A DNA stretch of 28,632 nt, taken from positions 1 to 28,632 of IMG/VR virus record IMGVR_UViG_3300009419_001480; one strand, 5' to 3'. This document shows positions 1 through 19,031 of the stretch, one piece after another (position 1 is the stretch's first letter; every line of letters begins with the position of its first letter). Origin of the DNA: a virus. The notes under the pieces are model-generated. The model was not told where the DNA came from. It worked only from the letters and a program-made list of their open reading frames with translations, and made no database searches. Position numbers and translations under genes: made by a program.

Positions 1-1464
1 CATGTTGTATGAATCTTGCTCAGGAGCTGCGTTAGATACGTGGAAATACTCTAAATCATCGAATACTGCAGAAACTTCTGAAGAAACAACGATCCAGTTA
101 GCACCACCTCTTAATGTAGTCTTGTGGATTTGAGCAGAAATTTGGTTAACTTTAGTAACTAAAGTTTGGTTCCAATCTTTTTGTGTGTAACCTTGTAAAG
201 TTGCACCACCAGTTCCACCGTATTTCCATTCGTTGTAATCCCACTTAGCTTTCCAAGCCGCACCTTTACGTAAATCACGTAAGATTTCACGGTCAACTTC
301 AGCTGCGATTTGCTCAGATAATAAAGCTGTTAATTCAGCTTCAGCGTCGATGTTGTGGAATGCACTAACGTCTTGTGCTAATTCAGGAGACCAGCTAGCT
401 CTTAATTTTCTTTCAGTTACAGAAACTGTTACTGATTCCAAATCAAAAGAAACTTCACCGATTGCATCTTCAAATTCTAAAGTTGCATAACGACGGTAAG
501 TTGCTGTAAAGTCAGTACCATCTAAAGATGTTGTACCTGTTACAGAATAGTTAGAGAAACCTGCAGTAGATGAATAAGATTGTAAATCAACGTTTAAGTA
601 GATTGAACCTTCTTCATCACAGATATCGTTAAAGTTAAGACCATTTGCACCTGCAGATCTTGAACCGTATTCTACAATACCTTTACCATATTTTTGTGTT
701 ACTACGTTAAATGGTAAAGATGTTCTACCACTTAAGTTAGCAATACGAGGACATGTTAAAGATAATGAAGCTAAAAATTCTTCAGTGTCCATTTCGTTAC
801 CGTCTGGACCTGATAATTTACCTTGACCTAATTTAGAGAAACCAGTTAATTTCAAGATAACTGAACCTAATGAAGTTACAGTTGAACCTGAAGTGTAAGT
901 TACTCCGTTACCCTCAGCACCTGCTGCGAATTCATGAAGTGAAGTACCTGTTAAAGAAACGATTGAAAAATCACCTTTAGAGTAATCAAACAAACCTTGG
1001 TCGTTTGCATCACTGTTCTCGTAGAAACGATCATACAAGTTAATACCTGTGTAACCAGTAGAAGCACTAGATCCACCAGCACCACCTGGGATACCGTAAG
1101 GAGAATAGTGTGCATTACCTGCAGTTCTTTCTTGGATTTTAGGTACGAAGAAGAACAATTTACCAATTGGTAAGTTCATTGCTTGTACTGAAACGATGTC
1201 GTTTGCTAATAATTTAGAGAATACACGACGGATAATTGGGAAAACTACAGTCTCGAAAGAACCAGATGCATCAGCTGTTGCTGCTTCATTGATTAAGTAA
1301 GACGCTTGGTTTTCATACAATTGCGCGATGTTATCTTTTTGGTGACCGTTAAGACCTTCTAAAAAGCCTAAGTCATCCCATTTTTTGATGGTATCTTCTT
1401 TGATAACACGAAGGTGCTTAAGACCGATGTTACCTACCATACCTGATTCTAATAATGCTCCCAT
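1..1464 (-). CDS. 23: Major capsid protein, T4 gp23-like (C-terminus cut by window edge)
   Basis: My translation gives 488 codons in one open frame from the ATG at 1464 to the window edge, so only the C-terminus is missing (T4 gp23 is 521 aa). The protein forms the hexameric shell of a T4-type head. After an N-terminal propeptide region comes the family-like stretch PIIRRVFSKLLANDIVSVQ followed by AMNLPIGKLFFF, matching the T4 region just after maturation cleavage. A T4 protease-type site (I-x-E before A) lies at LINE/AATA, residues 57-64, close to the T4 cleavage after Glu65. Later segments include ERKLRASWSPELAQD, EAELTALLSEQIAAEVDREI and GGANWIVVSSEVS, typical of the gp23 core. It is preceded by scaffold and protease genes, the T4 order. 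There is no Shine-Dalgarno sequence, only an A-rich leader. The family call is firm; the exact length is unknown. Confidence 0.95.
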   Translation of the reverse strand, partial: MGALLESGMVGNIGLKHLRVIKEDTIKKWDDLGFLEGLNGHQKDNIAQLYENQASYLINEAATADASGSFETVVFPIIRRVFSKLLANDIVSVQAMNLPIGKLFFFVPKIQERTAGNAHYSPYGIPGGAGGSSASTGYTGINLYDRFYENSDANDQGLFDYSKGDFSIVSLTGTSLHEFAAGAEGNGVTYTSGSTVTSLGSVILKLTGFSKLGQGKLSGPDGNEMDTEEFLASLSLTCPRIANLSGRTSLPFNVVTQKYGKGIVEYGSRSAGANGLNFNDICDEEGSIYLNVDLQSYSSTAGFSNYSVTGTTSLDGTDFTATYRRYATLEFEDAIGEVSFDLESVTVSVTERKLRASWSPELAQDVSAFHNIDAEAELTALLSEQIAAEVDREILRDLRKGAAWKAKWDYNEWKYGGTGGATLQGYTQKDWNQTLVTKVNQISAQIHKTTLRGGANWIVVSSEVSAVFDDLEYFHVSNAAPEQDSYNM

Positions 1465-1495
1465 TTTGAATATTTGTTTTTGGTTTTTTTATTTA

Positions 1496-2665
1496 TTATT
1501 TTATTTTACCCATTAAATCTTTCATTCTCTTGAATTGTGGATTCTCATAAGCTTTAGCTTCTGATAACACTTCTTGAGATGTTGATGTTGATGGAGTGTT
1601 AGAGATTTTTTCAACAACTGATTCGGTAACTGTAGTTTTTGTACCTAATTCAGTTTTTATTGTATTGAATAGACTTTTAGCCTCATTCATAGTAGAAACT
1701 GAATCAAATCTCTTTAATATGTTCAATTTCTCTTGTTTAGTTGTAGAATGTTCTGTAAATAAACGTGTAGCATAAGCTAAGTTTGCATTGAAAACAGCAA
1801 CTTCATTAAGTTTTTCTTTAAAAAGGATTAAAGCCTTCTTATACTCAGAATTTTGTTTTTTCAAATTTTCAACTTCTTCATTCATTTCGTGACGTCCAGC
1901 TTTGTATTTTTTACCCTGAGGTGCTCTAACGTCAGCTCCGAATGTTCTTGCAGCTTCACCAACTTCTTCTTCTTTAGATTCTTCTTCCTCTTCAGAAACC
2001 TCAATTTCTTCAGAATCTTCGTCTTCTTCATCTAACTCAATTTCGTACATGATTTCTTCGTCCGTTTCAGGTTCCATTTCTGGCATTTCCATTTCCGAAT
2101 CATCATCACCATCAAGTTTGATAATATAATCGTCTTCATCTGTTGTAAGTTCTACATTGTTACCGTCTTTTTTAACTACAATACCATCTTCTGGTTTCAT
2201 AGCCTTGAAAACTTTAAGAACTTCATCATCTGAAGCACCAGTCATGTCCATCACATCTTCGTCCTCATCGGAAAAATCATCCATAGATGGTTCTTCGTCT
2301 TCTGATTCTGAATCTGTAGGTAATTCATCATCACCCATTTCTGAGTCTAATGAATCGATACCCTTAGTTGGATCTTCGTTATCGAGGTCTGTTGTGTCAT
2401 TTTCAGCATCATCAGCTTCAGCATCATCTGCTGTTGCTTCATCGTCTGACATATCGTCTGCCTCTTCTTCAGGATTAACTTCATCTTCTGGTTGTTCATC
2501 CATAGGGATTTCAGTTTCTTCCTCTTCTTCCAATGATTCTTTAAGCAAGTCATTCAGTTCTTGTTTCATAGTTGAAGCAAGTATACCCTTTGCATTTTGC
2601 TTTACTGCTTCTTCAAGTGTTTGTACTTGAAGTAACGCTTGTTCTAAAATTGATTTTTCAGTCAT
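1496..2665 (-). CDS. 22: Prohead core scaffolding protein, T4 gp22-like
   Basis: 389 aa. Assigned to the internal scaffold on which the T4-type prohead assembles and which is later degraded by gp21. Position between protease and capsid genes is the main evidence. The protein is highly acidic: roughly residues 40-235 are Glu/Asp-rich low complexity. The C-terminal third (about 255-389) is predicted helical, as expected of a core protein. T4 gp22 is 269 aa, so this one is enlarged by its acidic tract. The last residues (KRMKDLMGKIK) resemble the C-terminal RMKKLMG of the neighbouring protease. The start at 2665 is followed by the helical MTEKSILEQALLQVQTLEE. Direct similarity to T4 gp22 is weak by eye, so the name is partly synteny-based. 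Confidence 0.8.
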   Translation of the reverse strand: MTEKSILEQALLQVQTLEEAVKQNAKGILASTMKQELNDLLKESLEEEEETEIPMDEQPEDEVNPEEEADDMSDDEATADDAEADDAENDTTDLDNEDPTKGIDSLDSEMGDDELPTDSESEDEEPSMDDFSDEDEDVMDMTGASDDEVLKVFKAMKPEDGIVVKKDGNNVELTTDEDDYIIKLDGDDDSEMEMPEMEPETDEEIMYEIELDEEDEDSEEIEVSEEEEESKEEEVGEAARTFGADVRAPQGKKYKAGRHEMNEEVENLKKQNSEYKKALILFKEKLNEVAVFNANLAYATRLFTEHSTTKQEKLNILKRFDSVSTMNEAKSLFNTIKTELGTKTTVTESVVEKISNTPSTSTSQEVLSEAKAYENPQFKRMKDLMGKIK

Positions 2666-2688
2666 TGTGAAATTTTGTTTTATTATCT

Positions 2689-2696
2689 TATAAATA
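2689..2696 (-). promoter_or_regulatory. TATTTATA box upstream of scaffold gene, candidate late promoter
   Basis: TATTTATA on the coding strand, 23 nt before the gp22 start in an 85-nt intergenic gap. The same octamer occurs before several other genes of the window, always in the same orientation relative to the gene. No TTG element at the usual Bacteroidota -33 distance was seen. Promoter function is inferred. Confidence 0.4.
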
Positions 2697-2750
2697 GTAC
2701 GATTTTATGAAAAATTCTCTTTTTCAATATAACTACCCCTATAAAATTTA

Positions 2751-3434
2751 TTATTTGGATAAAAAAGTATCTAAATTCCCCATTAATTTTTTCATTCTGC
2801 TCTCAACTTGGGGTTTTTTCTCTTCAGACTCTTGATATTGGTCTCTATCTGCTTGGTCAGCAAAAACATATGCACCGGGAGTAGATGGTGACGATACTAA
2901 ATCGAAACACACTAACTCAAAGTCTTCTTGAACAATATTCTGTCCTTTTACGTTTTTAAGTGAACCAACACCACGAGAAGATATACCTAAAGTGGCTCCG
3001 TTCATAATTAACATTGCGGCTTGGTCCCCCTTAGTAGATACAATACCCATCTTTCTCCAACCAGGAGAAGTGAATAATTTAATTTTACCCATTAGGATTC
3101 TACCGTCCCACCATGTTTCAAGAATTGAATGGGATACCCTATCTAAATCGATAAGTGAAGATGATGGGTGGTTTAGTTCATTTAAGGCACCACCCTTTTT
3201 AATTAATGTTTGATATTTCTCGTTTTCCCTTTTAAGTAACATCTCAGGATAAATCCTTCCGTTCTTATTTGCAGTATCGTATTTTTGCAAAACAGCATAA
3301 AGGATAAGGTCTTGTGAAAAGTCCATATCCTTTGCCTCTTTAATAATTTGTTTGTTATCCTCTGGTGAAACGTGACCAGCATCGTATTCTATTAAAATTC
3401 CGTGTCCAGTCTCTTTTGGTCCTAATATCTTCAT
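2751..3434 (-). CDS. 21: Prohead core protease, T4 gp21-like
   Basis: 227 aa, close to T4 gp21 (212 aa). It is the serine-type maturation protease inside the prohead, cutting scaffold and capsid propeptides after (L/I)xE. Visible family signatures are the N-terminal strand LILYAVLQKYDTANKNGRIYP, the histidine motif ELNHP (His89) and the nucleophile motif LGISSRG (Ser152 or Ser153), followed by FELVCFDLVSSPSTPGA. The C-terminus carries RMKKLMG, shared with the scaffold's C-terminus. It lies between the 141-aa gene and gp22, with a TATTTATA box 16 nt before its ATG. The annotation is firm; which of the two adjacent serines is catalytic is not certain. Confidence 0.94.
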   Translation of the reverse strand: MKILGPKETGHGILIEYDAGHVSPEDNKQIIKEAKDMDFSQDLILYAVLQKYDTANKNGRIYPEMLLKRENEKYQTLIKKGGALNELNHPSSSLIDLDRVSHSILETWWDGRILMGKIKLFTSPGWRKMGIVSTKGDQAAMLIMNGATLGISSRGVGSLKNVKGQNIVQEDFELVCFDLVSSPSTPGAYVFADQADRDQYQESEEKKPQVESRMKKLMGNLDTFLSK

Positions 3435-3450
3435 TTATAGATTTTATTAC

Positions 3451-3458
3451 TATAAATA
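3451..3458 (-). promoter_or_regulatory. TATTTATA box upstream of prohead protease gene
   Basis: TGTATTTATAG on the coding strand, 16 nt before the gp21 ATG, in the short gap after the 141-aa gene. It matches the boxes before scaffold, portal, terminase and the 332-aa gene. Candidate late promoter, inferred. Confidence 0.42.
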
Positions 3459-3472
3459 CATCAAGAACCAAG

Positions 3473-3898
3473 TTATTTCTTACTTTTGTGAAAATTGAAT
3501 AGTTTTTTATCAATTAAACTACCATCGATAACATCTTCCAATAAATTTTTTATTGTATTTTTAATTTCTTTTGATTTAACATCGAATTGTTTCTCAACGT
3601 ATAAAGTTATTTCAAGATTCATAAATGACCTTTTTTCTAACTTAATACCTTTTGTTCTTATATCCAAATCCACAATACATTGGTCTTTAAAATTTGAATC
3701 TTTAAGGTTGTATATTGATTCTTTTATTTTTCTTCTTGTTTTTAAAATAGTTTGATTATAATCTTCAGTGTCATTTTCTGGTTGTACCCAAGAATTCAAT
3801 TTTAAATAAACAGTTTTAAGATTTTTAAAATCTACGGTACCGTAACCGATTTTTACATTATTGTAAATCCCTAATGGGATATACTTACCTGTTTTCAT
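3473..3898 (-). CDS. Conserved-looking protein of unknown function in the gp67/gp68 position
   Basis: 141 aa, not recognised. It begins MKTGKYIPLGIYNNVKIGYG and has mixed alpha/beta composition: a beta-rich first half (TVDFKNLKTVYLKLNSWVQP), a basic middle (ILKTRRKIKESIYNL), a strand ITLYVEKQFDV and a C-terminal helix. No signal peptide or membrane segment. It sits directly upstream of the protease gene, where T4 has the small prohead core genes 67 and 68. A head-assembly role would fit by position, but I see no sequence motif proving it. The 106-nt gap upstream is shared with the divergent bS21 gene; TATTTTTG at 3972-3965 on the minus strand fits TAnnTTTG and could be its promoter. Confidence 0.75.
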   Translation of the reverse strand: MKTGKYIPLGIYNNVKIGYGTVDFKNLKTVYLKLNSWVQPENDTEDYNQTILKTRRKIKESIYNLKDSNFKDQCIVDLDIRTKGIKLEKRSFMNLEITLYVEKQFDVKSKEIKNTIKNLLEDVIDGSLIDKKLFNFHKSKK

Positions 3899-3955
3899 TA
3901 ATTTCTCATTATTATATATTATTTTATGGTGTTATTAAAAAATAAGGAAAAAAAC

Positions 3956-3986
3956 TTACAAAACCAAAAATAATTTTATATATTTG
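3956..3986 (+). promoter_or_regulatory. Bacteroidota-type promoter of the phage bS21 gene
   Basis: TATATTTG at 3979-3986 is an exact match to the Bacteroidota -7 consensus TAnnTTTG; TTACA at 3956-3960, 18 nt upstream, is a possible -33 element (TTG expected). The predicted leader before the ATG at 4005 is only about 15 nt, is almost purely A/T and has no Shine-Dalgarno-like purine run. Confidence 0.55.
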
Positions 3987-4004
3987 TAATATACTTATTA
4001 TATT

Positions 4005-4196
4005 ATGATTATAATCGATTTATCAAAAGAAAAGAGCATTGAAAGTGCACTCAGAACCTACAAACAAAAAGTTCAGAAAACTAAGCAAATTCAAAAATTA
4101 AGGGAAAGACAACAATTTGAAAAACCTTCAGTTACTAGAAGAAAAGAAGTTTTAAAAGCTGTGTATGTTCAACAAATAAAAAACGGTCTTAATTAA
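4005..4196 (+). CDS. rpsU: Small ribosomal subunit protein bS21, phage-encoded
   Basis: 63 aa, the usual bS21 length. The pattern is diagnostic: MIIIDLSKEKSIESALRTYK at the start, the helix RERQQFEKPSVTRRKEVLKA at residues 33-52, and a basic composition. bS21 binds the 30S platform beside the 3' end of 16S rRNA. In Bacteroidota it is known to help occlude the anti-Shine-Dalgarno sequence; a tyrosine near position 54 contributes in Flavobacterium, and Tyr54 is present here (AVYVQQ). The gene is on the strand opposite to the head genes around it, has its own promoter, and ends inside a bidirectional hairpin. The encoded protein probably joins host ribosomes and changes which messages they start on. 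That effect is inferred; the family identity is clear. Confidence 0.93.
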   Translation: MIIIDLSKEKSIESALRTYKQKVQKTKQIQKLRERQQFEKPSVTRRKEVLKAVYVQQIKNGLN

Positions 4197-4208
4197 GACC
4201 GTTTTTTA
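4177..4208. terminator. Perfect 32-nt palindrome, bidirectional terminator overlapping two stop codons
   Basis: Every base from 4177 to 4192 pairs with 4193-4208. The GC core is CGGTCTT/AAGACCG, flanked by A-runs on one side and T-runs on the other, so it can act as an intrinsic terminator in both directions. The stops of bS21 (4194-4196) and of the converging 248-aa gene (4191-4189) lie in its centre, so both proteins end in KNGLN. Confidence 0.85.
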
Positions 4209-4935
4209 ATTCTGTTAATCTGTAGTAGTTGTACTTAGATGTTGTCATTTTACTAACTTCATCTTTTACTTTATTTAGTTTAGTGGTTAATTCAGTGTCA
4301 TTTGACTCATTTAAAAGTGTAGATACTTGATTAATGATTGATTCTTGTAATTCATTACTTTTGATAATTAAATCATCATGGGTAATTGATAAAATAGTCT
4401 TTAATTCTTCTTTTTGTGATTCTGATAATGTGTTAGAATATAAAACATTAAAATTGTTTGCCAAAACGGCTTGTAACAATGTTTCGTTTGGTACTAATGT
4501 CGAACCTTTAGATTCTTGTATTTCCTTTTTAGTTGTTAAATGATTTACTAATTTATTTTTAGCAATTACTTTCTTCTCAATATTTGATAATGAATCTTTT
4601 TCAGATAATATATCTAAAGACTCATATAATTCGTTATTTTCTATTTCGACATCACCTAATTTACTATGTAGAGATTCACAAAATACATTTAAATCATTCC
4701 AGTTACCCATTGGTTGACCGAAATATGTATTTAATCCCTCAACATACAATTTTGCGGTTTCCTTATCTTCAATATATTTGTTTTCAATTTCTTCATAAAA
4801 CAAATACATTTCTTTAAATGCTTTGTTTTCTTTAATTGTGTTTAATATATCCTTAACTTCTTTCTTATTTTCTTTAGAATAAGACTCAGTTAATTTTGTC
4901 AACATTTTGGTTTTTATAACCCCGAATTTGTTCAT
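4189..4935 (-). CDS. Unknown helical protein between portal and protease genes
   Basis: 248 aa, not recognised. Composition is rich in Lys, Glu, Asn and Leu, with long predicted helices and coiled-coil-like stretches (ILNTIKENKAFKEMYLFYEE, LSESQKEELKTILS, LNKVKDEVSKM). No signal peptide, membrane segment or catalytic motif. It begins 2 nt after the portal stop codon, so it is almost certainly co-transcribed and perhaps translationally coupled to portal. Location beside portal and prohead genes suggests a head assembly or core role, like T4 gp67/gp68, but this is positional inference. Its final codons and stop form half of the palindromic terminator shared with bS21. Confidence 0.75.
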   Translation of the reverse strand: MNKFGVIKTKMLTKLTESYSKENKKEVKDILNTIKENKAFKEMYLFYEEIENKYIEDKETAKLYVEGLNTYFGQPMGNWNDLNVFCESLHSKLGDVEIENNELYESLDILSEKDSLSNIEKKVIAKNKLVNHLTTKKEIQESKGSTLVPNETLLQAVLANNFNVLYSNTLSESQKEELKTILSITHDDLIIKSNELQESIINQVSTLLNESNDTELTTKLNKVKDEVSKMTTSKYNYYRLTELKNGLN

Positions 4936-4937
4936 TT

Positions 4938-6770
4938 TTAATCGTTTATAATATCGTTCAATTTATTTTCTATTTCATAAATATTCTGTTGAGCTCTTTC
5001 CATGTCAAATAAAATATTTTTTCCTTCTTTTTCTTCTCCCAACATACTCAATATCTTTGATTTTTTAGATTTAGTAAAAGATTCACTCAATGGAGCATCT
5101 CCCTCACCACCCGATGGAGGGGTTGCGGGTGCTCCACCCATATCCATTCCACCACCTGCGTCTTCAGTACCCATAGCACCAGCGGCTTCTAATTTTTGTC
5201 TTTCCTCTTCTGAAATACCATATTTGGAATCCACATCGTCAAATACACCAGAACGTTTAATTACATTTTGTGTATTCGTTAACTCAAATCCCATCGCTCT
5301 TTCAAGACGTTGTTGTTGTAAGTCTAATATAACTTCGGAATCACTCATACCAAGTATATTCTTTTTAGCCCATGTATGTGAAACAGGTAAGATACCCACT
5401 TGAGATTGGTCAGATGTCGCATCTTTATACAATGTAATTTTTTCTTTCCACTGTTCGATTTTTAATAAATCAGATTGTGCTGAAGGATTAGTTAATGATA
5501 AAGAAAAATTATTTAACTCATCTTCTAAACCTAAAAGATATAAATGTACTAATGCAATTTTATTTAATTCTTGAATAACAGATTTTTGAATTCTGTTAAT
5601 TGTTCTTGCAAAACGAATATCCATTAATGCTAAACTCTTACCTTCACCAACAACCTCCTCAAATCCTAAGAATGCTTTTGGAATACGTAATGCCGCCAAT
5701 AATTTCTTTTGGATATATTCAATATCTGCAATTTCACCTAAATTTTGTGCTCCAGGTAAAGTTTCAATTGGATTACTTTGTGCTGGGTCACGAACAGGAA
5801 TGAAATAATCTTGGTCTACAGCCATTTGATTATATCTCATATCTACGTTACCATTACGTGGGTCTGAAACCTGATCTCTTTTAAATTTGTTTGCAACACG
5901 TTGTACATATGGTTCGATATCTTTATCGTCCATATTACCAACGAATACTTTGAATACACGTCTTTCAGGTGCTCTTGATGTTCTGTAAATTAACATCGCA
6001 TCTTCAGCAAGTAAAAGTTGTTTCCAAATTCTTCTAATCTTATCTAACATAGAAGTACCGTATGGTAACTTTCTATCATCACCTAATAATCTAAAGTGAG
6101 CAATTTCCCACGCTTGGAATTCTAAATCTTTATTCTTCCAAGTAAATCTTAATTCTCTTGTTGGTACTTTAATATCAGTATAAGAGTTTGGTGTTTTAGA
6201 TGCCGCACCTTCAATTCTTTCAATCTCAATATTTGGTAATTGTTGACAACCAACAACTCCCTTTTCAGGGTCTATTTTTAAATAAACAAAATCATCACCA
6301 TACTTACAAAGACCTCTAGTCCACATTTGTAAGTTTGTATTAACATCTAATTTGTTATTGAATAAATCATCTAATATATTTTTAACTCTATCTGAATCTG
6401 AAAATATTGTTAATATTTGTCCTTTCTCAGACATGGTTGTTGATTCTTCAGCGTAAATGTCTAACGCCGCAGATATCTCAGGAGTAAACTCCATAGATTC
6501 ATAATCGTAATATGCCGATAATCTATTTGGTTCGTAGTAAACAGATTGGTTGTAAAGTGATTGGTCTAACTTAGTCCATTTATCTGCAATGTATTGACTC
6601 TGTTGAGCTTGTAACATTGCCTTTTCATACTCTTCTCTACTGTCTGTTTTTAATATTTCATCTTTATTGAAATTGAACGAAGGTGGAGCGACATTTTTTT
6701 GTTTTGCTTGATTTGGATAACCAAACACCTTTGTTAATCTCTGAAAGACGGTAAGATTCTGTTCTGCCAT
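4938..6770 (-). CDS. 20: Portal protein, T4 gp20-like
   Basis: 610 aa (T4 gp20: 524 aa). It forms the dodecameric portal through which DNA is packaged and which nucleates the prohead. Family-like stretches include RLSAYYDYESMEFTPEISAA (about 83-102), LDIYAEESTTMSEKG, CKYGDDFVYLKIDPEKGVVG, FRLLGDDRKLPYGTSMLDKI, RAPERRVFKVFVGNM, LPGAQNLGEIADIEYIQKKL and ALRIPKAFLGFEE with GEGKSLALMDIRFARTI. The region near 545-580 is Gly/Pro/Met-rich low complexity, followed by a basic patch (FTKSKKSKILSMLGEE) and a C-terminal helix. The extra C-terminal part explains the greater length. It lies directly after terminase. A TATTTATA box ends only 3 nt before the ATG. Confidence 0.96.
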   Translation of the reverse strand: MAEQNLTVFQRLTKVFGYPNQAKQKNVAPPSFNFNKDEILKTDSREEYEKAMLQAQQSQYIADKWTKLDQSLYNQSVYYEPNRLSAYYDYESMEFTPEISAALDIYAEESTTMSEKGQILTIFSDSDRVKNILDDLFNNKLDVNTNLQMWTRGLCKYGDDFVYLKIDPEKGVVGCQQLPNIEIERIEGAASKTPNSYTDIKVPTRELRFTWKNKDLEFQAWEIAHFRLLGDDRKLPYGTSMLDKIRRIWKQLLLAEDAMLIYRTSRAPERRVFKVFVGNMDDKDIEPYVQRVANKFKRDQVSDPRNGNVDMRYNQMAVDQDYFIPVRDPAQSNPIETLPGAQNLGEIADIEYIQKKLLAALRIPKAFLGFEEVVGEGKSLALMDIRFARTINRIQKSVIQELNKIALVHLYLLGLEDELNNFSLSLTNPSAQSDLLKIEQWKEKITLYKDATSDQSQVGILPVSHTWAKKNILGMSDSEVILDLQQQRLERAMGFELTNTQNVIKRSGVFDDVDSKYGISEEERQKLEAAGAMGTEDAGGGMDMGGAPATPPSGGEGDAPLSESFTKSKKSKILSMLGEEKEGKNILFDMERAQQNIYEIENKLNDIIND

Positions 6771-6773
6771 GTA

Positions 6774-6781
6774 TATAAATA
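6774..6781 (-). promoter_or_regulatory. TATTTATA box immediately upstream of portal gene
   Basis: GTATTTATATAC on the coding strand with the ATG only 3 nt after the octamer, the same spacing as at terminase. If this is a -10 type element the transcript would be leaderless or nearly so. Candidate only. Confidence 0.38.
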
Positions 6782-6823
6782 CTTTTCTTTATAATATAAA
6801 CTAAATTATTGATAAATGGAATC

Positions 6824-8194
6824 TTATTTTGACTTACCAAATAACCACATATGTTCTCTATAAGCGTCCTTTGATATATTCATATTGTTATTTGGGTGAT
6901 ATAAATTTTGATTATCAATACCCATAGAACCTATTTGGTCAAACGCGGTACCATAAGAGTAAAAAGATTTATTAGGTTCATACGACCTTTCAGACATTGT
7001 CCAAGATTCCAACATCGCTTTATTAGCGGATTCGTTCTTTTTCAATTGGTTGAAGCACATATCTGCAGCGTATAACGCCATCGACATACTCATAATTGAG
7101 TCATCATGTGCACCCTTCATGTGGTCGGGTCTACCATTCATATAAACAAACGTATTGAGTTCGTTTAACAATCTACTTGACCTAACACTAAATCCTTTTC
7201 TAAGTTGCTCCTCAAATGCCGCAACTATTTGGGTTCTTTTATTATTGAAATTTATACCAGGAATTTTATCCATCGCCTTTTTGTTCCATTCCCATATGTT
7301 TTGGGTGTTTATCCCATCAATGTATAGATTTTTATATTGCATTTCCTGTAACTTTCTAGATGTTGCTACACCCATACCACCGGTAATGTCAATAACAATG
7401 TATGCTTCATATAAGATACCCCATTTATATGCGACCGCCGCCAAATCATCTGGTGGTATTTTACCAATGTATTCTGCAACTTGTTCTCTTTCATCAAAGT
7501 CAATGATATTAATTGATGAGAAGTCTTCACTATCTCCTCTACTAACATCAACACCCATAATATAACGATGACCCTCAACTGGTTCTTTCCAATGCCAAAA
7601 GGTACCTTGCATGTACTTCTCTTTAGGGATACGAATCATATTTTTAGCAATATTCTCTTGAATATCGCCAGGAATTACCCCATCTCCTGAACCTAAGAAA
7701 TCACATTCCAATTCCTGAGCAATCTTACGTCTATCGTATTTAAATTTCTTAGACATAGATTCAAACCAAGAAGAATATGGTTTATAACCTTGTTCGATAT
7801 ATTCGTTATATTTCTCAGGATCAAAATCCTTCATTATAACTTCCTCATCATTATATTGTTCTCTATTCAACATATAATGACAAATATCTTGACATTTAAC
7901 CCAATGTAAATCTTTGGTGTAACGAGGGTCTTTAAACCACCTTAAATCTGTTATATGGAAATCATTGATTCCACGTAATGCTTGGTCATAAACACCATAA
8001 TAGATAGGGTCATAACCATTTGGGGTTGAGATAAGAATAATCTTACCACCCGTTGATAGGGACGCCATAGATGCTGCCCAAAAATCTTCTCCCGCTTCAA
8101 TATAAGCAGCCTCATCAAATACAAGTATGGTTGGTGTGTAACCACGTAACGCATCCGCAGATGTTGCAACTGCTTTAACCTCACAACCGTTATT
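6824..8194 (-). CDS. 17: Large terminase subunit, T4 gp17-like: C-terminal part (Walker B and nuclease), separated by a one-base shift
   Basis: The open frame starts at 8194, just after the shift; the first ATG in it (8068) is too late because the Walker B strand ILVFDEAAYIE lies upstream of it. It runs on through MASLSTGGKIILISTPNG (coupling motif) to the RNase H-like nuclease: IMGVDVSRGDSEDFSSINII (first acidic motif), YIVIDITGGMG, and GAHDDSIMSMSMALYA (final acidic motif). Joined to 8190-8600 the protein is about 592 aa, close to T4 gp17 (610 aa), with nothing missing. So the gene is either read by frameshifting or, more probably, a single A has been added to an A-run in the assembly. It cuts and translocates phage DNA into the prohead via the portal encoded next. 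Confidence 0.9.
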   Translation of the reverse strand, partial: NNGCEVKAVATSADALRGYTPTILVFDEAAYIEAGEDFWAASMASLSTGGKIILISTPNGYDPIYYGVYDQALRGINDFHITDLRWFKDPRYTKDLHWVKCQDICHYMLNREQYNDEEVIMKDFDPEKYNEYIEQGYKPYSSWFESMSKKFKYDRRKIAQELECDFLGSGDGVIPGDIQENIAKNMIRIPKEKYMQGTFWHWKEPVEGHRYIMGVDVSRGDSEDFSSINIIDFDEREQVAEYIGKIPPDDLAAVAYKWGILYEAYIVIDITGGMGVATSRKLQEMQYKNLYIDGINTQNIWEWNKKAMDKIPGINFNNKRTQIVAAFEEQLRKGFSVRSSRLLNELNTFVYMNGRPDHMKGAHDDSIMSMSMALYAADMCFNQLKKNESANKAMLESWTMSERSYEPNKSFYSYGTAFDQIGSMGIDNQNLYHPNNNMNISKDAYREHMWLFGKSK

Positions 8195-8196
8195 TT
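8190..8196 (-). other. One-base frameshift point in the terminase gene
   Basis: On the coding strand the zero frame reads TTA AAA TAA (stop); dropping one A of the AAAA run (8196-8193) gives TTA AAT AAC and restores a continuous terminase. Most likely a homopolymer error, otherwise a +1 recoding site. Confidence 0.8.
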
Positions 8197-8600
8197 AACC
8201 TAAATCTACTTTCTGAGTTTTTATCTGGCGAAAAACCAACATTAATCCATTCAGGCCATTGTTCAATAAAGTGTCTAACCTTATTAGCCATCTCCACCGC
8301 GGTATCACGTTTGTTCGCAATTAGTAGAACTCTCTCAGGTTCACTTTCTTTGGCAGTCTGTAATTTTTTAGAAATCCAAGCTGCGGTAACCGTAGTAACC
8401 CCCGCCTGTCTATATTTTCTAGTTATGTTTTCATTGTAATTTTCATAATCCTGAATCAATTGAATTTGGTCAGGGAATAATTCTAATGGAACATATTTTT
8501 TTTGAGTATTATCATAGGTTTGCAAATATGTTTTTAATGCATATGGTGCATCCTTCATAATCTTTGCATACTCTTTTAGTTGTTCTATTTTGGAATTCAT
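8190..8600 (-). CDS. 17: Large terminase subunit, T4 gp17-like: N-terminal ATPase part ending at a one-base shift
   Basis: 136 aa. Contains the start of the terminase ATPase: the adenine/Q-type region VPLELFPDQIQLIQDYE, then the P-loop RKYRQAGVTT (residues 61-70), then RVLLIANKRDTAVEMANKVR. The usual P-loop lysine (GKT) is Val68; Lys62 at the front of the motif may substitute, as in the deviant Walker A motifs known from other large terminases. The frame meets TAA right after ...SRFRLK, where the sequence TTAAAATAAC would read RLNNGCEVKAVAT if one A were removed. Not a stand-alone protein; see the C-terminal part. The start at 8600 follows a terminator and a TATTTATA box. Confidence 0.88.
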   Translation of the reverse strand: MNSKIEQLKEYAKIMKDAPYALKTYLQTYDNTQKKYVPLELFPDQIQLIQDYENYNENITRKYRQAGVTTVTAAWISKKLQTAKESEPERVLLIANKRDTAVEMANKVRHFIEQWPEWINVGFSPDKNSESRFRLK

Positions 8601-8603
8601 ATA

Positions 8604-8611
8604 TATAAATA
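8604..8611 (-). promoter_or_regulatory. TATTTATA box immediately upstream of terminase gene
   Basis: TGTATTTATATAT on the coding strand, ending 3 nt before the terminase ATG and starting right after the T-run of the upstream terminator. Same octamer and spacing as before portal. Candidate late promoter. Confidence 0.38.
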
Positions 8612-8640
8612 CAAAAAAAAAAGGAGGTTTAAAACCTCCT
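8611..8640 (-). terminator. Intrinsic terminator after the 496-aa gene
   Basis: AGGAGGTT/AACCTCCT hairpin (8622-8640) followed on the minus strand by a run of ten T. It starts 4 nt after the 496-aa gene's stop, which separates that operon from terminase. Confidence 0.82.
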
Positions 8641-8644
8641 CATA

Positions 8645-10135
8645 TTATTCTTTAGGTCTGTCTAATCCTAATTCTTTATAAATGTCATAATCATCATCAT
8701 CGTCATCATCTTTAGACAATGAAATACCCGGAATGCTTGATATAAAATCCATTAATTCGTCCGATTCAATTTCATCTGACATTGTTTCTAACTCATCGTT
8801 AAATTGATTCATCGTTTCCTCATAATCTTGTTGATTGAACATTTGTTGAATTGACGCCATTAAATCCGTCATTAAACGTTTTCCATTTTCACTATTACTA
8901 ACAACTTCTTTCATTAAAACTAAAAATTGTTTAGCTGGTAATTGGAAAATGTGCATTAACATGTAATTCTGTAATTGTTTACCATTTTCTAAAATTACTT
9001 CGTCGGGAAACTGTCCTCTAATTCTATCCCATATTGCAGGTCCTAAAAGTAAAGTCCACATTTCTTTTTCTAATGTACTTTCTAACTTTTGAGCTTGTTG
9101 GTACATCTCTCTATCTTGTGGATTTGTATATTCTCCAGGTTGTCCGTGACTACCTAATATTTCAAAAACACCTTTAATTAATTCATGTATTAAAACTGGA
9201 AAATTAATTCCTCTTGCAACAACTTTAACTTTTTGTTCTTCTTGTTCACCACCTTCTTCACCACCCTCATCTCCAGTTTCTCCTGTTTCATCATCACCAG
9301 GAAATTCAGTCTTAACCTTACCTGCAACACTATCAGACGCACCTTTAATCATTGAAGGACTAAATTGCCAATAGTTTGCATCGTTAACTGACATCATTAC
9401 ACCGTAATCGTTATATAATTCATCAGAACCCGTAATCTCTCTAAGTTTTTCACCAACAAGTTGGTACATATAATGACCTCTTTTTGAAGCCCCTTGAATA
9501 ATACTATTAATTAAAGATAATTTTGCTCTTTCTAAATCTAATTGTTTTAAATCGATGTATAATTCCTCTTCAACTTCTTGATTTTCAGGATTTATCTGAG
9601 GTTGTTGATTATTATCTTCCTCCTCATCGTCGTCCTCAACATCAACCTCATCCGGATTTTGTTCAGGTCCCTGTTCTCTATTGAAATCAGATTTATCAAT
9701 TTCATTCATTCCAATAATTTTAGCATCAAATTCAACTTCATCACCAATTCCCATTTCCTCTTTAACAATTTCTATTGCTAATTGCTCTAACGCCTCTCTA
9801 TGCGTTGATTCAAGTCTAATAATATTATTATGAGCAGTATACATCATTGTCAATAATGGACCCATTTCAGTACCATCTAATGTACCTTGATAGTTTGTGT
9901 ATTGTCTAACATTATTAACAATTTGTCTATATCTTTCAGAAGCCAAAAGTTCTTGGAGATTTTGGTTTGGTTCGTTTCCTGTTTTAGGAAAAGGTATTTT
10001 TTTTAAGGGTGTATCTCCTGAAGCCAATTTAGCTTGTAAATCGGGATTTGGTCTATCAGCAGTATCAAAATCCATTGCCATCTCTTTTAAATTTTCGTTA
10101 ATTAAAGATAACAAATTTTTCTTAGATAATTTCAT
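8645..10135 (-). CDS. Unknown large acidic phage protein, probably structural
   Basis: 496 aa, not recognised. The N-terminus MKLSKKNLLSLINENLKEM is followed by a helical domain, an Asp/Glu/Asn-rich linker (about 165-190), a second helical domain, a Gly/Glu linker (about 285-305), and a conserved-looking stretch NFPVLIHELIKGVFEILGSH. The helical C-terminal region includes LLGPAIWDRIRGQFPDE and LPAKQFLVLMKEVVS and ends in an Asp run before YDIYKELGLDRPKE. HELIKG lacks the second histidine of a HExxH zinc site, so no protease call is made. It is the last gene before terminase and follows three co-directional genes of similar acidic character. A virion or neck role is guessed from position only. 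Confidence 0.75.
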   Translation of the reverse strand: MKLSKKNLLSLINENLKEMAMDFDTADRPNPDLQAKLASGDTPLKKIPFPKTGNEPNQNLQELLASERYRQIVNNVRQYTNYQGTLDGTEMGPLLTMMYTAHNNIIRLESTHREALEQLAIEIVKEEMGIGDEVEFDAKIIGMNEIDKSDFNREQGPEQNPDEVDVEDDDEEEDNNQQPQINPENQEVEEELYIDLKQLDLERAKLSLINSIIQGASKRGHYMYQLVGEKLREITGSDELYNDYGVMMSVNDANYWQFSPSMIKGASDSVAGKVKTEFPGDDETGETGDEGGEEGGEQEEQKVKVVARGINFPVLIHELIKGVFEILGSHGQPGEYTNPQDREMYQQAQKLESTLEKEMWTLLLGPAIWDRIRGQFPDEVILENGKQLQNYMLMHIFQLPAKQFLVLMKEVVSNSENGKRLMTDLMASIQQMFNQQDYEETMNQFNDELETMSDEIESDELMDFISSIPGISLSKDDDDDDDYDIYKELGLDRPKE

Positions 10136-10144
10136 ATTTTCAAA

Positions 10145-10302
10145 TTATTTTTTATCTCCCTTAGTTGTTGCTTTAGGGAAAGGATTAACTTTAGGTCCAG
10201 GTTTAAGTGGAGATTTAGGTTTATTTGGTTTAGTACCAGGATTAACCTTTGGTTTACTCGGTGCAATTTTTGGATCATCTTCCCTCAACGCTTTAGGATA
10301 GG
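10145..10302 (-). pseudogene. Frameshifted C-terminal continuation of the 230-aa gene (second Pro/Lys repeat)
   Basis: In the -1 frame relative to the 230-aa ORF, translation continues YPKALREDDPKIAPSKPK and then a second copy of the Pro/Lys/Gly repeat, ending PKATTKGDKK at a TAA (10145-10147), 9 nt before the next ATG. Copy one reads CCTATCC where the second copy has CCTTTCC; adding one base there would fuse both into one protein of about 277 aa. So a one-base loss, real or from assembly, hides the true C-terminus. Confidence 0.7.
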
Positions 10303-10396
10303 ATTTACCTTTGGTCCAGGTTGGAATGGTGTTTTAGGTTTGTTAGGTTTTGTACCCGGGTCAACCTTTGGTTTGCTTGGTGCAATTTTTGGACCA
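10168..10396 (-). repeat. Tandem near-repeat of about 100-130 bp encoding KIAPSKPKVxPGTKPNKPK
   Basis: Two imperfect direct copies (about 10168-10275 and 10299-10396). Both encode PKIAPSKPKV(D/N)PGTKPNKPK followed by a related PGPKVNP segment. The copies differ at scattered third positions, so the duplication is not recent. Confidence 0.75.
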
Positions 10397-10977
10397 TTTC
10401 CAACAATAGCTTCATATGTCATGAATTCAGGAAGGCCATTATGTCCTGTTTTTACATTTGGACCATACTGGTGTACTTCTGATTCGTTTAATTTAATATT
10501 GATTAATTCCATAATTTCGTTTTTTGATGTAAAACTATGAAAATTTTCTTCTGCTAATGTATTAACCCATTTTTTTATCTTTTTAGACTCGTCCATATGT
10601 GTGTGATCACATTTACAATCTTTTACTGATTCTCCACAACTATCACATTTCTTACCCTCTTTAACTTCTTTTTTCTGACCCTTTAATATTTTAAAATCTT
10701 GACCATCAATTTTACCATTGTGGTTTTTGTCTAATTTCTTTTGATTACCTTTTAATTCTTCAGAAACTTCTCCTTCCTCACCAACAAGTTTAATATCTTG
10801 TTTTTTAGCTAAGTTTTGTAATGCTGCACTTTTTGATAAAGCATCGGCCGTAGTTGTAATAGCTTCACCTAACATTCTGTTGGCTAAGTTACTAAGTTGT
10901 TTATCTGTGAATTTTACCAATGTCTTTTCTGACATTCCTTCTTTGATTAATTTATCAACTAATTCTGACCTTTTCAT
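10285..10977 (-). CDS. Unknown protein with EF-hand-like loop, CxxC motif and Pro/Lys repeat tail
   Basis: 230 aa as read, probably about 277 aa if the one-base shift near 10300 is repaired. Not recognised as a family. Visible parts: helical N-terminus (MKRSELVDKLIKEGMSEKTL), an EF-hand-like calcium loop LDKNHNGKIDGQDF near residue 85, a CDSCGESVKDCKCDH cluster near residues 110-124 that could bind zinc, a helical segment with ELINIKLNESE, and a Pro/Lys/Gly repeat tail. It overlaps the upstream 133-aa gene by 4 nt (ATGA type), showing operon organisation, and lies upstream of the 496-aa gene. Role unknown; virion or assembly function is possible by context. Confidence 0.75.
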   Translation of the reverse strand: MKRSELVDKLIKEGMSEKTLVKFTDKQLSNLANRMLGEAITTTADALSKSAALQNLAKKQDIKLVGEEGEVSEELKGNQKKLDKNHNGKIDGQDFKILKGQKKEVKEGKKCDSCGESVKDCKCDHTHMDESKKIKKWVNTLAEENFHSFTSKNEIMELINIKLNESEVHQYGPNVKTGHNGLPEFMTYEAIVGNGPKIAPSKPKVDPGTKPNKPKTPFQPGPKVNPILKR

Positions 10978-11375
10978 ATTTCTTTGAATTTTATTTCCTC
11001 TTTTATAAGAAGATAACTTCTAATTTTTAATTTTTTTGTAACACTATCAATTGATTCACCAAATTTAAATGTTAATCTTTCACTATCTGAATCAATGTCA
11101 AATTTCTCCCAAGCCATTGCGACTACACCATCTACAGCATCAATAACTCCGAAATAATCGGAGTCTTGAACTAATTCTAATTGTAAATCTGTATTTTTTA
11201 ATAATCCAACTAAATCAACATATTCAATCTCAGGTGATTTAGGTTGTGATGATGCGGATGCGGGTATAATAAACCACCCATCCATGTCAATTTCAGTACT
11301 TTTACTAAAGATAAATTCGTACTGTTTTTGACCTTTATAATCAGAACCTATTTCATTGACATAGATAAGATGCAT
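10974..11375 (-). CDS. Unknown small beta-rich protein
   Basis: 133 aa, not recognised. No signal peptide or membrane segment. Predicted beta-rich N-terminus (MHLIYVNEIGSDYKGQKQYE, FIFSKSTEIDMDGWFIIPAS), an acidic middle (VQDSDYFGVIDAVDGVVAMA) and a basic end (KKLKIRSYLLIKEEIKFKEI). It begins 1 nt after the stop of the 332-aa gene and its last 4 nt overlap the next gene, so the three are surely one transcript. Within a T4-like head module it may be a neck or completion protein, but I see no specific evidence. Confidence 0.75.
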   Translation of the reverse strand: MHLIYVNEIGSDYKGQKQYEFIFSKSTEIDMDGWFIIPASASSQPKSPEIEYVDLVGLLKNTDLQLELVQDSDYFGVIDAVDGVVAMAWEKFDIDSDSERLTFKFGESIDSVTKKLKIRSYLLIKEEIKFKEI

Positions 11376-11376
11376 T

Positions 11377-12375
11377 TTATTTAAAGTATTTACTTAATTT
11401 TTCACTAATAGCTTGATTAATATCGTTTTTAATTTCGTCTAAATCAAGTTCTTGAACGTCATCTTCATAAGACTGTCCTTCACTTGCTTCAATGTCTGCA
11501 AATTGACTTAAATCCAATTCATTGGTATCTTCTTCACCAATTGGCGACTCAATAAAACTATTCAATAAATCCATAGTCTCGCCTAAGTCTTCGTCACCGG
11601 TTACCGGCTCTTCAGCAGGTACCTCATCTTCTGCAGATGGTTCAGCAATTGGTTCTTCTCCACCCATTTCATCTTCCTCTCTTTCGAATTTTTTAGCAAT
11701 GTCTTCAATATCCTCATCGTCTAATTTATCTAAATCAACGGCAGAAATAATCATGTTTAAAATGTACTTGATATCATCACTTTCCATTTTATCCTGTAAA
11801 TCTCTTAACTCTTGTCCTAACTTACCTGCAAATTTTTGAGCTTCAGCCATATAATCAGAACGTTTTCCTTCTACTCCCATTTCTTCTCCACCCGCTGGTG
11901 GTAATTCACCCATTGGTTCCTCAGCAGGAACATCTCCCATTGGCTCTTCAGCCGCAGGTGGAACATCCATACCAGCATCAGGAGCCATAGGTGCATCCAT
12001 AGAAGGTTGTGCCAATGGAGACTCATCTTGTGGTTTTGTTTGTTTTAAAACATATTTTGTAGCCTCTTGCAAGTCTTCTTGACCTTTTAAAAGATCTAAT
12101 CTTTTAAATGCTTCAGCATATGATGAAAATTTATTTTTGTTCTTCATAAACATACCACCAATGTAATCAAGAGAACTTTCGTTTAACCCCTTTTTTACAT
12201 AGTATCCGTCTTTTTCTTTAACGATACCGTAAACACCCCCATTAGTTGATTCTTTCACTAATTCGGATTTTTTAGTTGATGGTTGGTTATTGTTGTAGTA
12301 GGTTAACTCGAGAATTCTTTTTAATTTGTCATCTCCGTTAAGTTTTTCACTACCAAGTGGTTTTAAGTCTGCCAT
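11377..12375 (-). CDS. Unknown acidic protein, first gene of the pre-terminase operon
   Basis: 332 aa, not recognised. An N-terminal folded part (about 1-110) contains GGVYGIVKEKDGYYVKKGLN and LDYIGGMFMKNKNKFSSYAE, followed by a Pro/Ala/Glu/Met-rich linker with repeated (A/V)PAEEPMG units (about 115-165). Then come a helical block (KFAGKLGQELRDLQDKMESD), more acidic linker and a helical C-terminus (NDINQAISEKLSKYFK). The repeated EEPMG and AEEP units make the linker look like a flexible spacer. It is preceded by a TATTTATA box, so it probably heads an operon with the 133-, 230- and 496-aa genes. Function unknown. Confidence 0.75.
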   Translation of the reverse strand: MADLKPLGSEKLNGDDKLKRILELTYYNNNQPSTKKSELVKESTNGGVYGIVKEKDGYYVKKGLNESSLDYIGGMFMKNKNKFSSYAEAFKRLDLLKGQEDLQEATKYVLKQTKPQDESPLAQPSMDAPMAPDAGMDVPPAAEEPMGDVPAEEPMGELPPAGGEEMGVEGKRSDYMAEAQKFAGKLGQELRDLQDKMESDDIKYILNMIISAVDLDKLDDEDIEDIAKKFEREEDEMGGEEPIAEPSAEDEVPAEEPVTGDEDLGETMDLLNSFIESPIGEEDTNELDLSQFADIEASEGQSYEDDVQELDLDEIKNDINQAISEKLSKYFK

Positions 12376-12408
12376 TTTATTAATTGTTAGATATACTTAT
12401 TCTTATCC

Positions 12409-12416
12409 TATAAATA
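12409..12416 (-). promoter_or_regulatory. TATTTATA box upstream of the 332-aa gene
   Basis: TGTATTTATAGGATAAG on the coding strand, 33 nt before the ATG in a 70-nt gap. Almost identical in its flanks to the box before the protease gene (TGTATTTATAG). Candidate late promoter. Confidence 0.42.
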
Positions 12417-12445
12417 CATTGATATAGGGAAAAAAATAAGGTTCT

Positions 12446-13192
12446 TTATTGTGTTATGGATAATTTCTTATCTACAAGTGTTGTTTTTAGTTTTAATAAT
12501 TTCTCAATGTACCCATTTCGTCTAAGTAATTTAAAGGTCAAGTTTTCATAAGAATACTCCCCTCCTGATTCTAAACCACTTTGTCTAAATTCTTTTAATT
12601 TCTTTCTTAATTCATCAATTGATTCAATCGGTCCCCCTTTTTTGATAAGTAAATCTATTTTCTTCATATATTCTTCAGATTTTTGAAGAATCATCTTATC
12701 GTCAATATTAGATTTAACCTTATCTGGTTCAACAATCCACTTATTGTTTAGAATAGAATAAACACCTGAAGATACGTGTTCTTCATCAACATCTTGGACA
12801 TACAACTCAACATCGTATCCTTTGATAATAATGTTGTGTTTTTCATTCCACACGTTTTTCTTAGCGTCAAAAAATTCTTTTAGTAAGTCTAAATTATAAT
12901 CCGTTTCTTTAAAATCAATTAAAATATGTAGGTCTACGTCTGAATAGTTTGACCAATTGTAGTTTGCTAAAGAACCTGTAAGAACTATATCATGAATAAA
13001 AAATTCAATACCGAGACTATCAATAAAATCATTTGATATCTTTAGTAAATTTTTTCGAATATCCTCACGCATAGAAAACTTACCATCAGACCCTTCGAAA
13101 ATTTGTTCCGATAGTGAATCTTTTGATTTGAAAGACTTGATAATTTTCTTATCTTCTTCCTTATCCTCAATCAGTTCTTCAAATAAACTCAT
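12446..13192 (-). CDS. Nucleotidyltransferase-fold protein
   Basis: 248 aa. The polymerase-beta-type nucleotidyltransferase signature is clear: LTGSLANYNWSNYSDVDLHI has the Gly73-Ser74 pair and the metal-binding Asp85 and Asp87; a third acidic residue lies in GYDVELYVQD (about 127-129). Such proteins transfer a nucleotide to RNA, protein or a small molecule; the substrate here cannot be told. After the catalytic half comes a helical region with SGVYSILNNKWI and KIDLLIKKGGP. It overlaps the upstream KTSC gene by 4 nt, and follows Hsp20 and a small gene. No antitoxin-like partner (HEPN or MNT pair) was seen next to it, so a toxin-antitoxin role is not supported. Confidence 0.86.
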   Translation of the reverse strand: MSLFEELIEDKEEDKKIIKSFKSKDSLSEQIFEGSDGKFSMREDIRKNLLKISNDFIDSLGIEFFIHDIVLTGSLANYNWSNYSDVDLHILIDFKETDYNLDLLKEFFDAKKNVWNEKHNIIIKGYDVELYVQDVDEEHVSSGVYSILNNKWIVEPDKVKSNIDDKMILQKSEEYMKKIDLLIKKGGPIESIDELRKKLKEFRQSGLESGGEYSYENLTFKLLRRNGYIEKLLKLKTTLVDKKLSITQ

Positions 13193-13434
13193 CCTTTTTT
13201 AGTAAACTTATAACTTCTGGCGATATTCTCGTTGAAGTACTTTCCTTGTGATTCAGCAAGTCTAAACTTAGTGAACTTGGACCAAGGAACTTTATTATAC
13301 TCATAAATAGCACCATTATTAAAAGTCACAGTTAAATCCTCATTTTCTGTATTAAATGAGGCCGATTTTAAATTAGACGAATTGATGGTAACGTCAATCA
13401 TCTTTCCATTAATTGTTTCTGAAATTATTCCCAT
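13189..13434 (-). CDS. KTSC-domain protein
   Basis: 81 aa made almost entirely of one KTSC domain. The family pattern is visible: INSSNLKSASFNTENEDLTV, then FNNGAIYEYNKVPWSKFTKF, then AESQGKYFNENIARSYKF, ending in KKG. KTSC domains occur alone in phages and fused to lysyl-tRNA synthetases and other enzymes; binding of RNA or nucleotides has been suggested but the function is not settled. The stop overlaps the start of the nucleotidyltransferase gene by 4 nt, so the two are translated together and may act together. A terminator lies upstream, so it likely begins its own transcript. Confidence 0.88.
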   Translation of the reverse strand: MGIISETINGKMIDVTINSSNLKSASFNTENEDLTVTFNNGAIYEYNKVPWSKFTKFRLAESQGKYFNENIARSYKFTKKG

Positions 13435-13478
13435 AATATTATTGTTTTAGTACTATAATATAAACAATAAATATCAAA

Positions 13479-13503
13479 TAAAAAACCCCCGATGAGTCGG
13501 GGG
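13479..13503 (-). terminator. Intrinsic terminator after the 57-aa gene
   Basis: Stem CCCCCGA/TCGGGGG with loop CTCA, followed on the minus strand by TTTTTTATTTG. It begins 7 nt after the small gene's stop. Confidence 0.85.
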
Positions 13504-13510
13504 TGATAAA

Positions 13511-13684
13511 TTAAAAATTCTTTTTTAATTGATTGATGAGTTTATCACTAAGATATTCCTTTCTTTTTGTACTCTTAACTTCAGGTTCATTAAATTTATT
13601 ACGAATTGATTCGTCATCGGTACTTTTAAGAAGTTTAATGTTGACTTGTTCAATATGGTTACGTTTCATTAAATTTTTATTCAT
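13511..13684 (-). CDS. Small basic protein of unknown function
   Basis: 57 aa, starting MNKNLMKRNHIEQVNIKL and ending INQLKKNF. I chose the ATG at 13684 because the in-frame ATG at 13822 would run through the preceding terminator and the end of the Hsp20 gene. Lys/Arg-rich and predicted helical; no domain recognised. It is bounded by an intrinsic terminator on each side, so it is probably expressed as its own short message, perhaps from the AT-rich leader at 13685-13705 by read-through from hsp20. Such isolated small basic genes in phages are often host-takeover factors, but there is no direct evidence here. Confidence 0.6.
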   Translation of the reverse strand: MNKNLMKRNHIEQVNIKLLKSTDDESIRNKFNEPEVKSTKRKEYLSDKLINQLKKNF

Positions 13685-13705
13685 TATATTTTCTTTATTA
13701 TAAGT

Positions 13706-13733
13706 ATAAAAAAACCCCGTTTTCACGGGGTTT
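13706..13733 (-). terminator. Intrinsic terminator after hsp20
   Basis: Nine-base stem AAACCCCGT/ACGGGGTTT with GAAA tetraloop (13712-13733), continuing into a T-run on the minus strand, 3 nt after the Hsp20 stop. Confidence 0.87.
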
Positions 13734-13736
13734 AGT

Positions 13737-14093
13737 TTAATTAAGAGAAATTTGTCTCTCCAATGACTTTTTCCTATCAATAGGTAAAGTAAGTTCAAGA
13801 ACTCCGTTTTCAACCTTACCAATGATATCTTTTTCCTTCACGTCATCGGGTATATTATAGGATTTTACAAAACTCCCAACAAAATGATGTGATTTATCAC
13901 TTTCTTGTTTTTCGTAAATAATTTTTAATATACCTTCTTTTGTTGAGATTTTTAAATCATCTTTGGTTAATCCAGGTACACTTATCGAAACTGAATATTC
14001 AGTTTCACTTTTACTGATGTTAGTTTCAGGAGTTGATAAAAATCTGTTAGTATCAAATCCTGTGAAGAATGGGTCTTTAAATAATGTTATCAT
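13737..14093 (-). CDS. Small heat shock protein, Hsp20 / alpha-crystallin family
   Basis: 118 aa. Alpha-crystallin domain is recognisable: EYSVSISVPGLTKDDLKIST, GILKIIYEKQE, SFVKSYNIPDDVKEKDI and VENGVLELTLPIDRK. A short N-terminal arm (MITLFKDPFFTGFDTNRFL) and short C-terminal tail complete it; it is a compact member of a family usually 130-160 aa. Hsp20 proteins hold unfolding proteins for refolding by ATP-driven chaperones and are known from T4-like cyanophages. The gene is divergent from a ClpC-like unfoldase, and the 155-bp region between them holds a cluster of GACATT repeats, so the two are probably co-regulated as a protein-quality pair during virion production. Confidence 0.93.
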   Translation of the reverse strand: MITLFKDPFFTGFDTNRFLSTPETNISKSETEYSVSISVPGLTKDDLKISTKEGILKIIYEKQESDKSHHFVGSFVKSYNIPDDVKEKDIIGKVENGVLELTLPIDRKKSLERQISLN

Positions 14094-14134
14094 AGTTTTT
14101 ATATTTTTAATATATTTTTACAAATTATTTGCCA

Positions 14135-14193
14135 AATGTCTAAAACTGACATTTAGACATTGGTTAGACATTTTTTTAGACATTTTGACATTT
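14135..14193. promoter_or_regulatory. Cluster of GACATT repeats between hsp20 and clp, candidate operator
   Basis: A perfect 10-bp inverted repeat AATGTCTAAA (14135-14144) / TTTAGACATT (14152-14161) with 7-nt spacer is followed by more direct copies. GACATT starts at 14148, 14156, 14167, 14179 and 14187, three of them within TTAGACATT. It lies between two divergent chaperone genes, just upstream of the clp promoter. It is not the CIRCE element. A regulator-binding role is inferred. Confidence 0.6.
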
Positions 14194-14195
14194 AT

Positions 14196-14226
14196 TTGTT
14201 TTTTAGAATGAAATGTGTTATGTTTG
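14196..14226 (+). promoter_or_regulatory. Bacteroidota-type promoter of the clp gene
   Basis: TTG at 14196-14198 and TATGTTTG at 14219-14226 (exact TAnnTTTG) with a 20-nt spacer, about 22 nt before the ATG. The adjoining GACATT repeats are placed to control it. Confidence 0.6.
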
Positions 14227-14248
14227 TATCAACAAAACTTAATAACAC

Positions 14249-16267: not shown

Positions 16268-16271
16268 ATAG

Positions 16272-16301
16272 TTGACTTTTTTATAAAGTTATATATATTT
16301 A
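16272..16301 (+). promoter_or_regulatory. Promoter-like TTG-N19-TATATTTA before the candidate small RNA
   Basis: TTG at 16272-16274 and TATATTTA at 16294-16301 (one mismatch to TAnnTTTG), spacer 19 nt, just downstream of the clp stop. An overlapping TATTTATA box lies at 16296-16303. It would start a transcript near 16305-16308. Confidence 0.42.
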
Positions 16302-16307
16302 TATTCT

Positions 16308-16409: not shown

Positions 16410-16418
16410 CATTGAAAT

Positions 16419-16449
16419 TTGGTTTTATCAGTGTATTTTCGTATATTTA
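16419..16449 (+). promoter_or_regulatory. Promoter of the small lipoprotein gene
   Basis: TTG at 16419-16421 and TATATTTA at 16442-16449 with a 20-nt spacer. The ATG at 16456 is so close that the message should be leaderless or nearly so. Confidence 0.42.
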
Positions 16450-16455
16450 CATTAT

Positions 16456-16635: not shown

Positions 16636-16640
16636 AAATT

Positions 16641-16672: not shown

Positions 16673-16689
16673 TTTAAAACCCACTCTCC

Positions 16690-19011: not shown

Positions 19012-19031
19012 TTTTTATTTTTAAAATAAAT

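Follow-up and report, generated by a model that had tools for sequence, protein, structure and literature searches.

Ribosomal protein bS21 is encoded by many phages. In Flavobacterium johnsoniae, ribosomes without bS21 translate the rpsU message, which bears a strong Shine-Dalgarno (SD) sequence, better than ribosomes containing the protein, and SD-free messages worse, so that rpsU is equipped with a feedback device (McNutt et al. 2023, PMC9976891). This is the best-documented translational feedback of the Flavobacteriia. The phage locus considered here raises the question of what it means for such a circuit when a second copy of the gene is expressed from a message that has no SD sequence at all.

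The window, i.e. the whole stretch of DNA that was analysed (28,632 bases), comprises the entire IMG/VR record. On its minus strand it contains a set of T4-like head genes encoding the major capsid protein (1-1464), a prohead protease (2751-3434), the portal (4938-6770) and the terminase (6824-8600). The bS21 gene (4005-4196, plus strand, ATG to TAA) is one small gene of 63 codons running opposite to these head genes and flanked by two hypothetical genes for which no family was found: a divergent gene for a protein of 141 amino acids (3473-3898, minus strand) and a convergent gene for a protein of 248 amino acids (4189-4935, minus strand), whose stop codon overlaps that of bS21. The assignment as bS21 made in the initial annotation was confirmed, as the product matches the PFAM family Ribosomal_S21 (PF01165) with an E value of 1.3e-12 and a score of 47.6 bits, exceeding the curated cut-off of 27, and its best matches in the PDB are Bacteroidota-type bS21 proteins, including that of F. 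johnsoniae (7jil). As to the neighbourhood, the terminase region is split over two frames of 136 and 414 amino acids, while related contigs have a single ORF of about 591 amino acids; either the frame is broken here or the assembly contains an error. Close to the head genes, a ClpB/ClpC-like ATPase (14249-16267, plus strand) and an Hsp20 protein (13737-14093, minus strand) are encoded. That a phage protease might attack host bS21 has been put forward as a speculation (McNutt et al. 2023).

Phages of this type are already known (Chen et al. 2022, PMC9723584). They share with the window the T4-like head block, the lone bS21 gene on the opposite strand, Tyr54, and a C-terminus conserved within the clade; the leader, the promoter boxes and a terminator encoding the C-terminus are not treated in the consulted part of that article. 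New here are the survey of leaders, the promoter-like boxes at the position of the host SD, and the bidirectional terminator that encodes the C-terminus. The ribosomal proteins of viruses described by Mizuno et al. (2019, PMC6375957), with the bS21 of Pelagibacter phage HTVC008M, resemble the present case in that bS21 is phage-encoded, but both the phage and the host lineage differ. One phage-encoded bS21 enters Escherichia coli ribosomes, according to a citation in McNutt et al. (2023), whereas entry of the present protein into ribosomes is presumed.

An SD sequence has to be located no more than about 20 nt ahead of the ATG. Leaders were assessed by the duplex energy between bases -22 to -3 and the Flavobacterium 16S tail AACACCUCCUUUCU. 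The 16S tail of a Flavobacterium, taken from the genome sequence, reads GGAACACCUCCUUUCU; the 16S pattern used was GGAACACC, the variant GGATCACC having matched nothing. The translation start region of the phage gene (TTTGTAATATACTTATTATATT, 3983-4004, plus strand) has one G, one C and no SD core between -22 and -3, and its duplex with AACACCUCCUUUCU reaches -0.9 kcal/mol. The extended SD (at or below -13 kcal/mol), which is the mark of an autoregulated rpsU, is thus absent from this leader. The initial annotation was right in describing the message as devoid of an SD and nearly right in ascribing to it a pure A/T leader of about 15 nt, since one C occurs among the 15 nt that precede the ATG (TATACTTATTATATT). 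A transcription start further upstream that would supply an SD was considered and rejected, because a more distant start could not add one inside the stretch of about 20 nt to which an SD is confined.

A survey of 100 related loci from two phage groups, yielding 28 distinct leaders, extended this result. The clade to which the window belongs is represented by 79 usable loci including the window itself (22 distinct leaders, median -1.2 kcal/mol, strongest -7.4), and other viral contigs contributed 21 loci (6 distinct leaders, strongest -4.8), so that no distinct leader reached -8 kcal/mol. Additional phage members gave the same SD-free picture. Two exceptions were found outside both groups. In an uncultured 735-kb phage, bS21 is preceded by AAAGGAGGATAA (-12.1 kcal/mol; L218 301-477, L338), and the genes around it are mostly SD-free; the second locus (L337) has a weaker SD (-9.7 kcal/mol). 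Viral contigs were also queried with a Prolixibacteraceae bS21, which returned one locus. The 735-kb phage, as a bS21 phage with an SD, and the clade without one offer a natural comparison.

On the host side, a search of genomes with the same protein profile gave 80 loci for evaluation. Among Flavobacteriaceae, 27 of 28 rpsU leaders lie at or below -13 kcal/mol (median -20.9), whereas this holds for none of the leaders from Saprospiraceae (0/7), Spirosomataceae (0/7) and Prolixibacteraceae (0/14); those of some Bacteroidales are intermediate, at about -10 to -12. The survey results are broadly in line with McNutt et al. (2023). The proposed opposition of a host rpsU with a strong SD and a phage copy without one consequently stands for the Flavobacteriaceae and not for the other three families; on the phage side, it applies to all 28 distinct leaders and breaks down for the bS21 of the 735-kb phage. 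A Flavobacterium-type rpsU including its SD also occurs on a contig assigned to a Limnohabitans MAG (L106); this contig is probably mis-binned.

As regards the host of the phage, the closest matches of both bS21 and the portal are Bacteroidota proteins and also, among others, those of a Flavobacterium phage, and the nearest cultured relatives by portal include Microcystis phage Mel-JY01 and Flavobacterium phage immuto; none of this amounts to a direct host link. A bS21 tree grouped the clade (clade A) and gave no placement among hosts. When positions 1-20000 of the window were compared with 397 genomes from the family of a Flavobacterium in search of CRISPR spacers, matches of the Clp ATPase gene swamped the search and no host link emerged. 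Chen et al. (2022) report a single Flavobacterium spacer directed against a related phage. As a strong rpsU SD is missing in three candidate families, the true host may have no such feedback.

The best-supported account, to which we would give somewhat less than an even chance, is that the supply of phage bS21 bypasses the bS21-sensing feedback of the host and that, where an SD-bearing rpsU exists, the host gene is held off. Its starting points are directly observed, namely the gene, its missing SD, the conservation of this lack within the clade, and the SD of Flavobacteriaceae rpsU. The gene, belonging to a T4-like Bacteroidota phage, would give rise to a short SD-free message of its own, which would be translated by ordinary bS21-bearing ribosomes without waiting for bS21-lacking ones, a step that follows from the biochemistry of McNutt et al. 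(2023). The product would enter host ribosomes, where Tyr54 would help to keep the 16S tail shut in the manner of the host protein. In hosts whose rpsU carries an extended SD, ribosomes filled with phage bS21 would then turn off host rpsU through its own feedback, and new ribosomes would receive phage bS21. In favour of this account, bS21 of such phages is transcribed along with the late genes, and a related phage is the target of the Flavobacterium spacer mentioned above (Chen et al. 2022). Compared with the autoregulation of rpsU in F. johnsoniae, the protein and its tail-sequestering Tyr54 are the same, but the extended SD that the feedback depends on is missing from the phage message, and we infer an escape of phage bS21 from this feedback as a logical consequence. 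If the feedback is indeed bypassed and the host gene silenced, what the SD-free leader and the host circuit are for can be tested directly with existing F. johnsoniae reporter and depletion strains. A further idea of the initial annotation, that a flood of bS21 would favour SD-less phage messages, fails: host messages are SD-free as well, so that a closed 16S tail gives phage messages no advantage and only host rpsU would be disfavoured.

Whether the missing SD is a property of bS21 in particular was judged from two related phage contigs (217 and 151 kb), in which 11 of 339 predicted genes reached -7 kcal/mol or better, compared with 24 of 339 mock regions; each gene was assumed to begin at the first ATG of an ORF, with the longest ORFs that do not overlap taken as genes, and some ATG distances will be wrong. 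The absence of an SD from bS21 is the default of the phage clade, at chance level and nothing special, which means that selection for escape is not required. We consider it nearly as likely as the account given above that the missing SD is a mere default of Bacteroidota-type phage messages, that bS21 is expressed as other phage genes are, that the rpsU feedback has had no part in shaping its leader, and that host rpsU is affected, if at all, only incidentally. The lack of a strong rpsU SD in several candidate host families agrees with this. A default state leaves unexplained, although it need not explain, why an SD is consistently missing in the clade from the one gene that most needs it in its host version, and even then the phage gene would still be outside the feedback.

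The leader is further characterized by two promoter-like boxes. The far one, TATATTTG (3979-3986, plus strand), ends 18 nt before the ATG and is kept in most clade members, where it ends 17-19 nt before the bS21 ATG; it fits the TAnnTTTG box of Bacteroidota promoters. The near one, TACTTATT (3992-3999, plus strand), ends 5 nt before the ATG and is a variant of the motif TATTTATA. In most clade members it has the form TA(C/T)TTAT(A/T) and ends 4-5 nt before the ATG; the exact TATTTATA is found in five loci (L011, L019, L059, L078, L282), and most members deviate from it by 1-2 bases. This 8-mer is enriched about tenfold in sense orientation before the genes of two clade contigs (L197-L215), and in 20 of 51 cases on these contigs, portal and terminase among them, only 3-7 nt separate its end from the ATG. 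In Flavobacterium phage immuto (L216), it precedes late genes at a distance of 11-17 nt from the ATG. The window itself has the motif upstream of 6770 and 8600 (both minus strand). We infer from this distribution that TATTTATA is a late promoter motif, and its frequent location 3-5 nt from the ATG suggests that late phage messages may be leaderless or almost so; for TATTTATA and for leaderless late messages of such phages, nothing relevant appeared among the papers listed by literature searches. If either box served as promoter, the leader of bS21 would measure no more than about 14 nt, and the stretch that forms the SD in Flavobacterium is occupied by promoter-like sequence in the phage gene.

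From the positions of the boxes and the sense enrichment of TATTTATA, it could be argued that transcription rules the leader: a late-type box at the ATG would produce a leaderless or near-leaderless message too short at its 5' end to accommodate an SD, irrespective of what this means for translation. We regard this as less probable than either of the preceding explanations, because the near box departs from TATTTATA in most members, and a start directed by the far box would still provide a leader of about 14 nt.

The protein itself differs from its host counterparts more than was initially supposed. As annotated, the bS21 of the window has Tyr54, and so does each of the 36 distinct clade proteins. 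The statement that all core residues are kept is wrong, however, since the host-type residues Arg14, Arg18 and Arg/Lys21 are replaced in the window protein as in each of the 36. In 71 distinct host bS21 proteins, Arg14 and Arg18 are invariant (71/71 each) and Arg or Lys is present at position 21 in 69. With a spacing of i, i+4 and i+7, the three residues would lie on one helix face. In addition, Arg/Lys30 of the host is changed to Gln in the phage clade (codons 14-30 correspond to 4042-4095 of the window). According to Chen et al. (2022), divergent residues of phage bS21 sit at the mRNA-facing end. This location and the consistent loss of the three basic residues would suit a protein that acts chiefly through its altered N-terminal helix, influencing mRNA choice or initiation for phage messages, with the leader being irrelevant. 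We give this about the same weight as the transcriptional explanation; the second phage group retains Arg14 (8/8) and Arg18 (7/8), which speaks against it. Within the preferred account of supply outside the feedback, the altered helix may contribute a further influence, specific to the phage, on which mRNAs are chosen, in keeping with the proposal of Chen et al. (2022). An improbable extension would be that phage bS21 supplied from its SD-free message fills all ribosomes and shuts off host rpsU by turning the host's feedback against it, and that the charge-stripped protein marks a ribosome pool suited to near-leaderless late messages.

The 3' end of the gene shows a second conserved feature. 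The stop codon of bS21 lies within a bidirectional terminator hairpin (4178-4207), whose sequence also specifies the KNGLN tail of the protein. A hairpin with flanking A and T runs is present at the bS21 stop in 80 of 80 clade loci and in the window, with 21 distinct versions of about -13 to -18 kcal/mol. Standard pairs occupy 233 of 234 pair cells in the 18 gap-free versions, and two positions are changed on both sides. Conserved C-termini of phage bS21 have been seen as a possible sign of ribosome function (Chen et al. 2022); the terminator may be an alternative reason for this conservation. The same palindrome ends the convergent gene, whose stop is located 5 nt before that of bS21 in 71 of the 80 loci, and both proteins terminate in KNGL plus one residue, the convergent protein of the window likewise in KNGLN.
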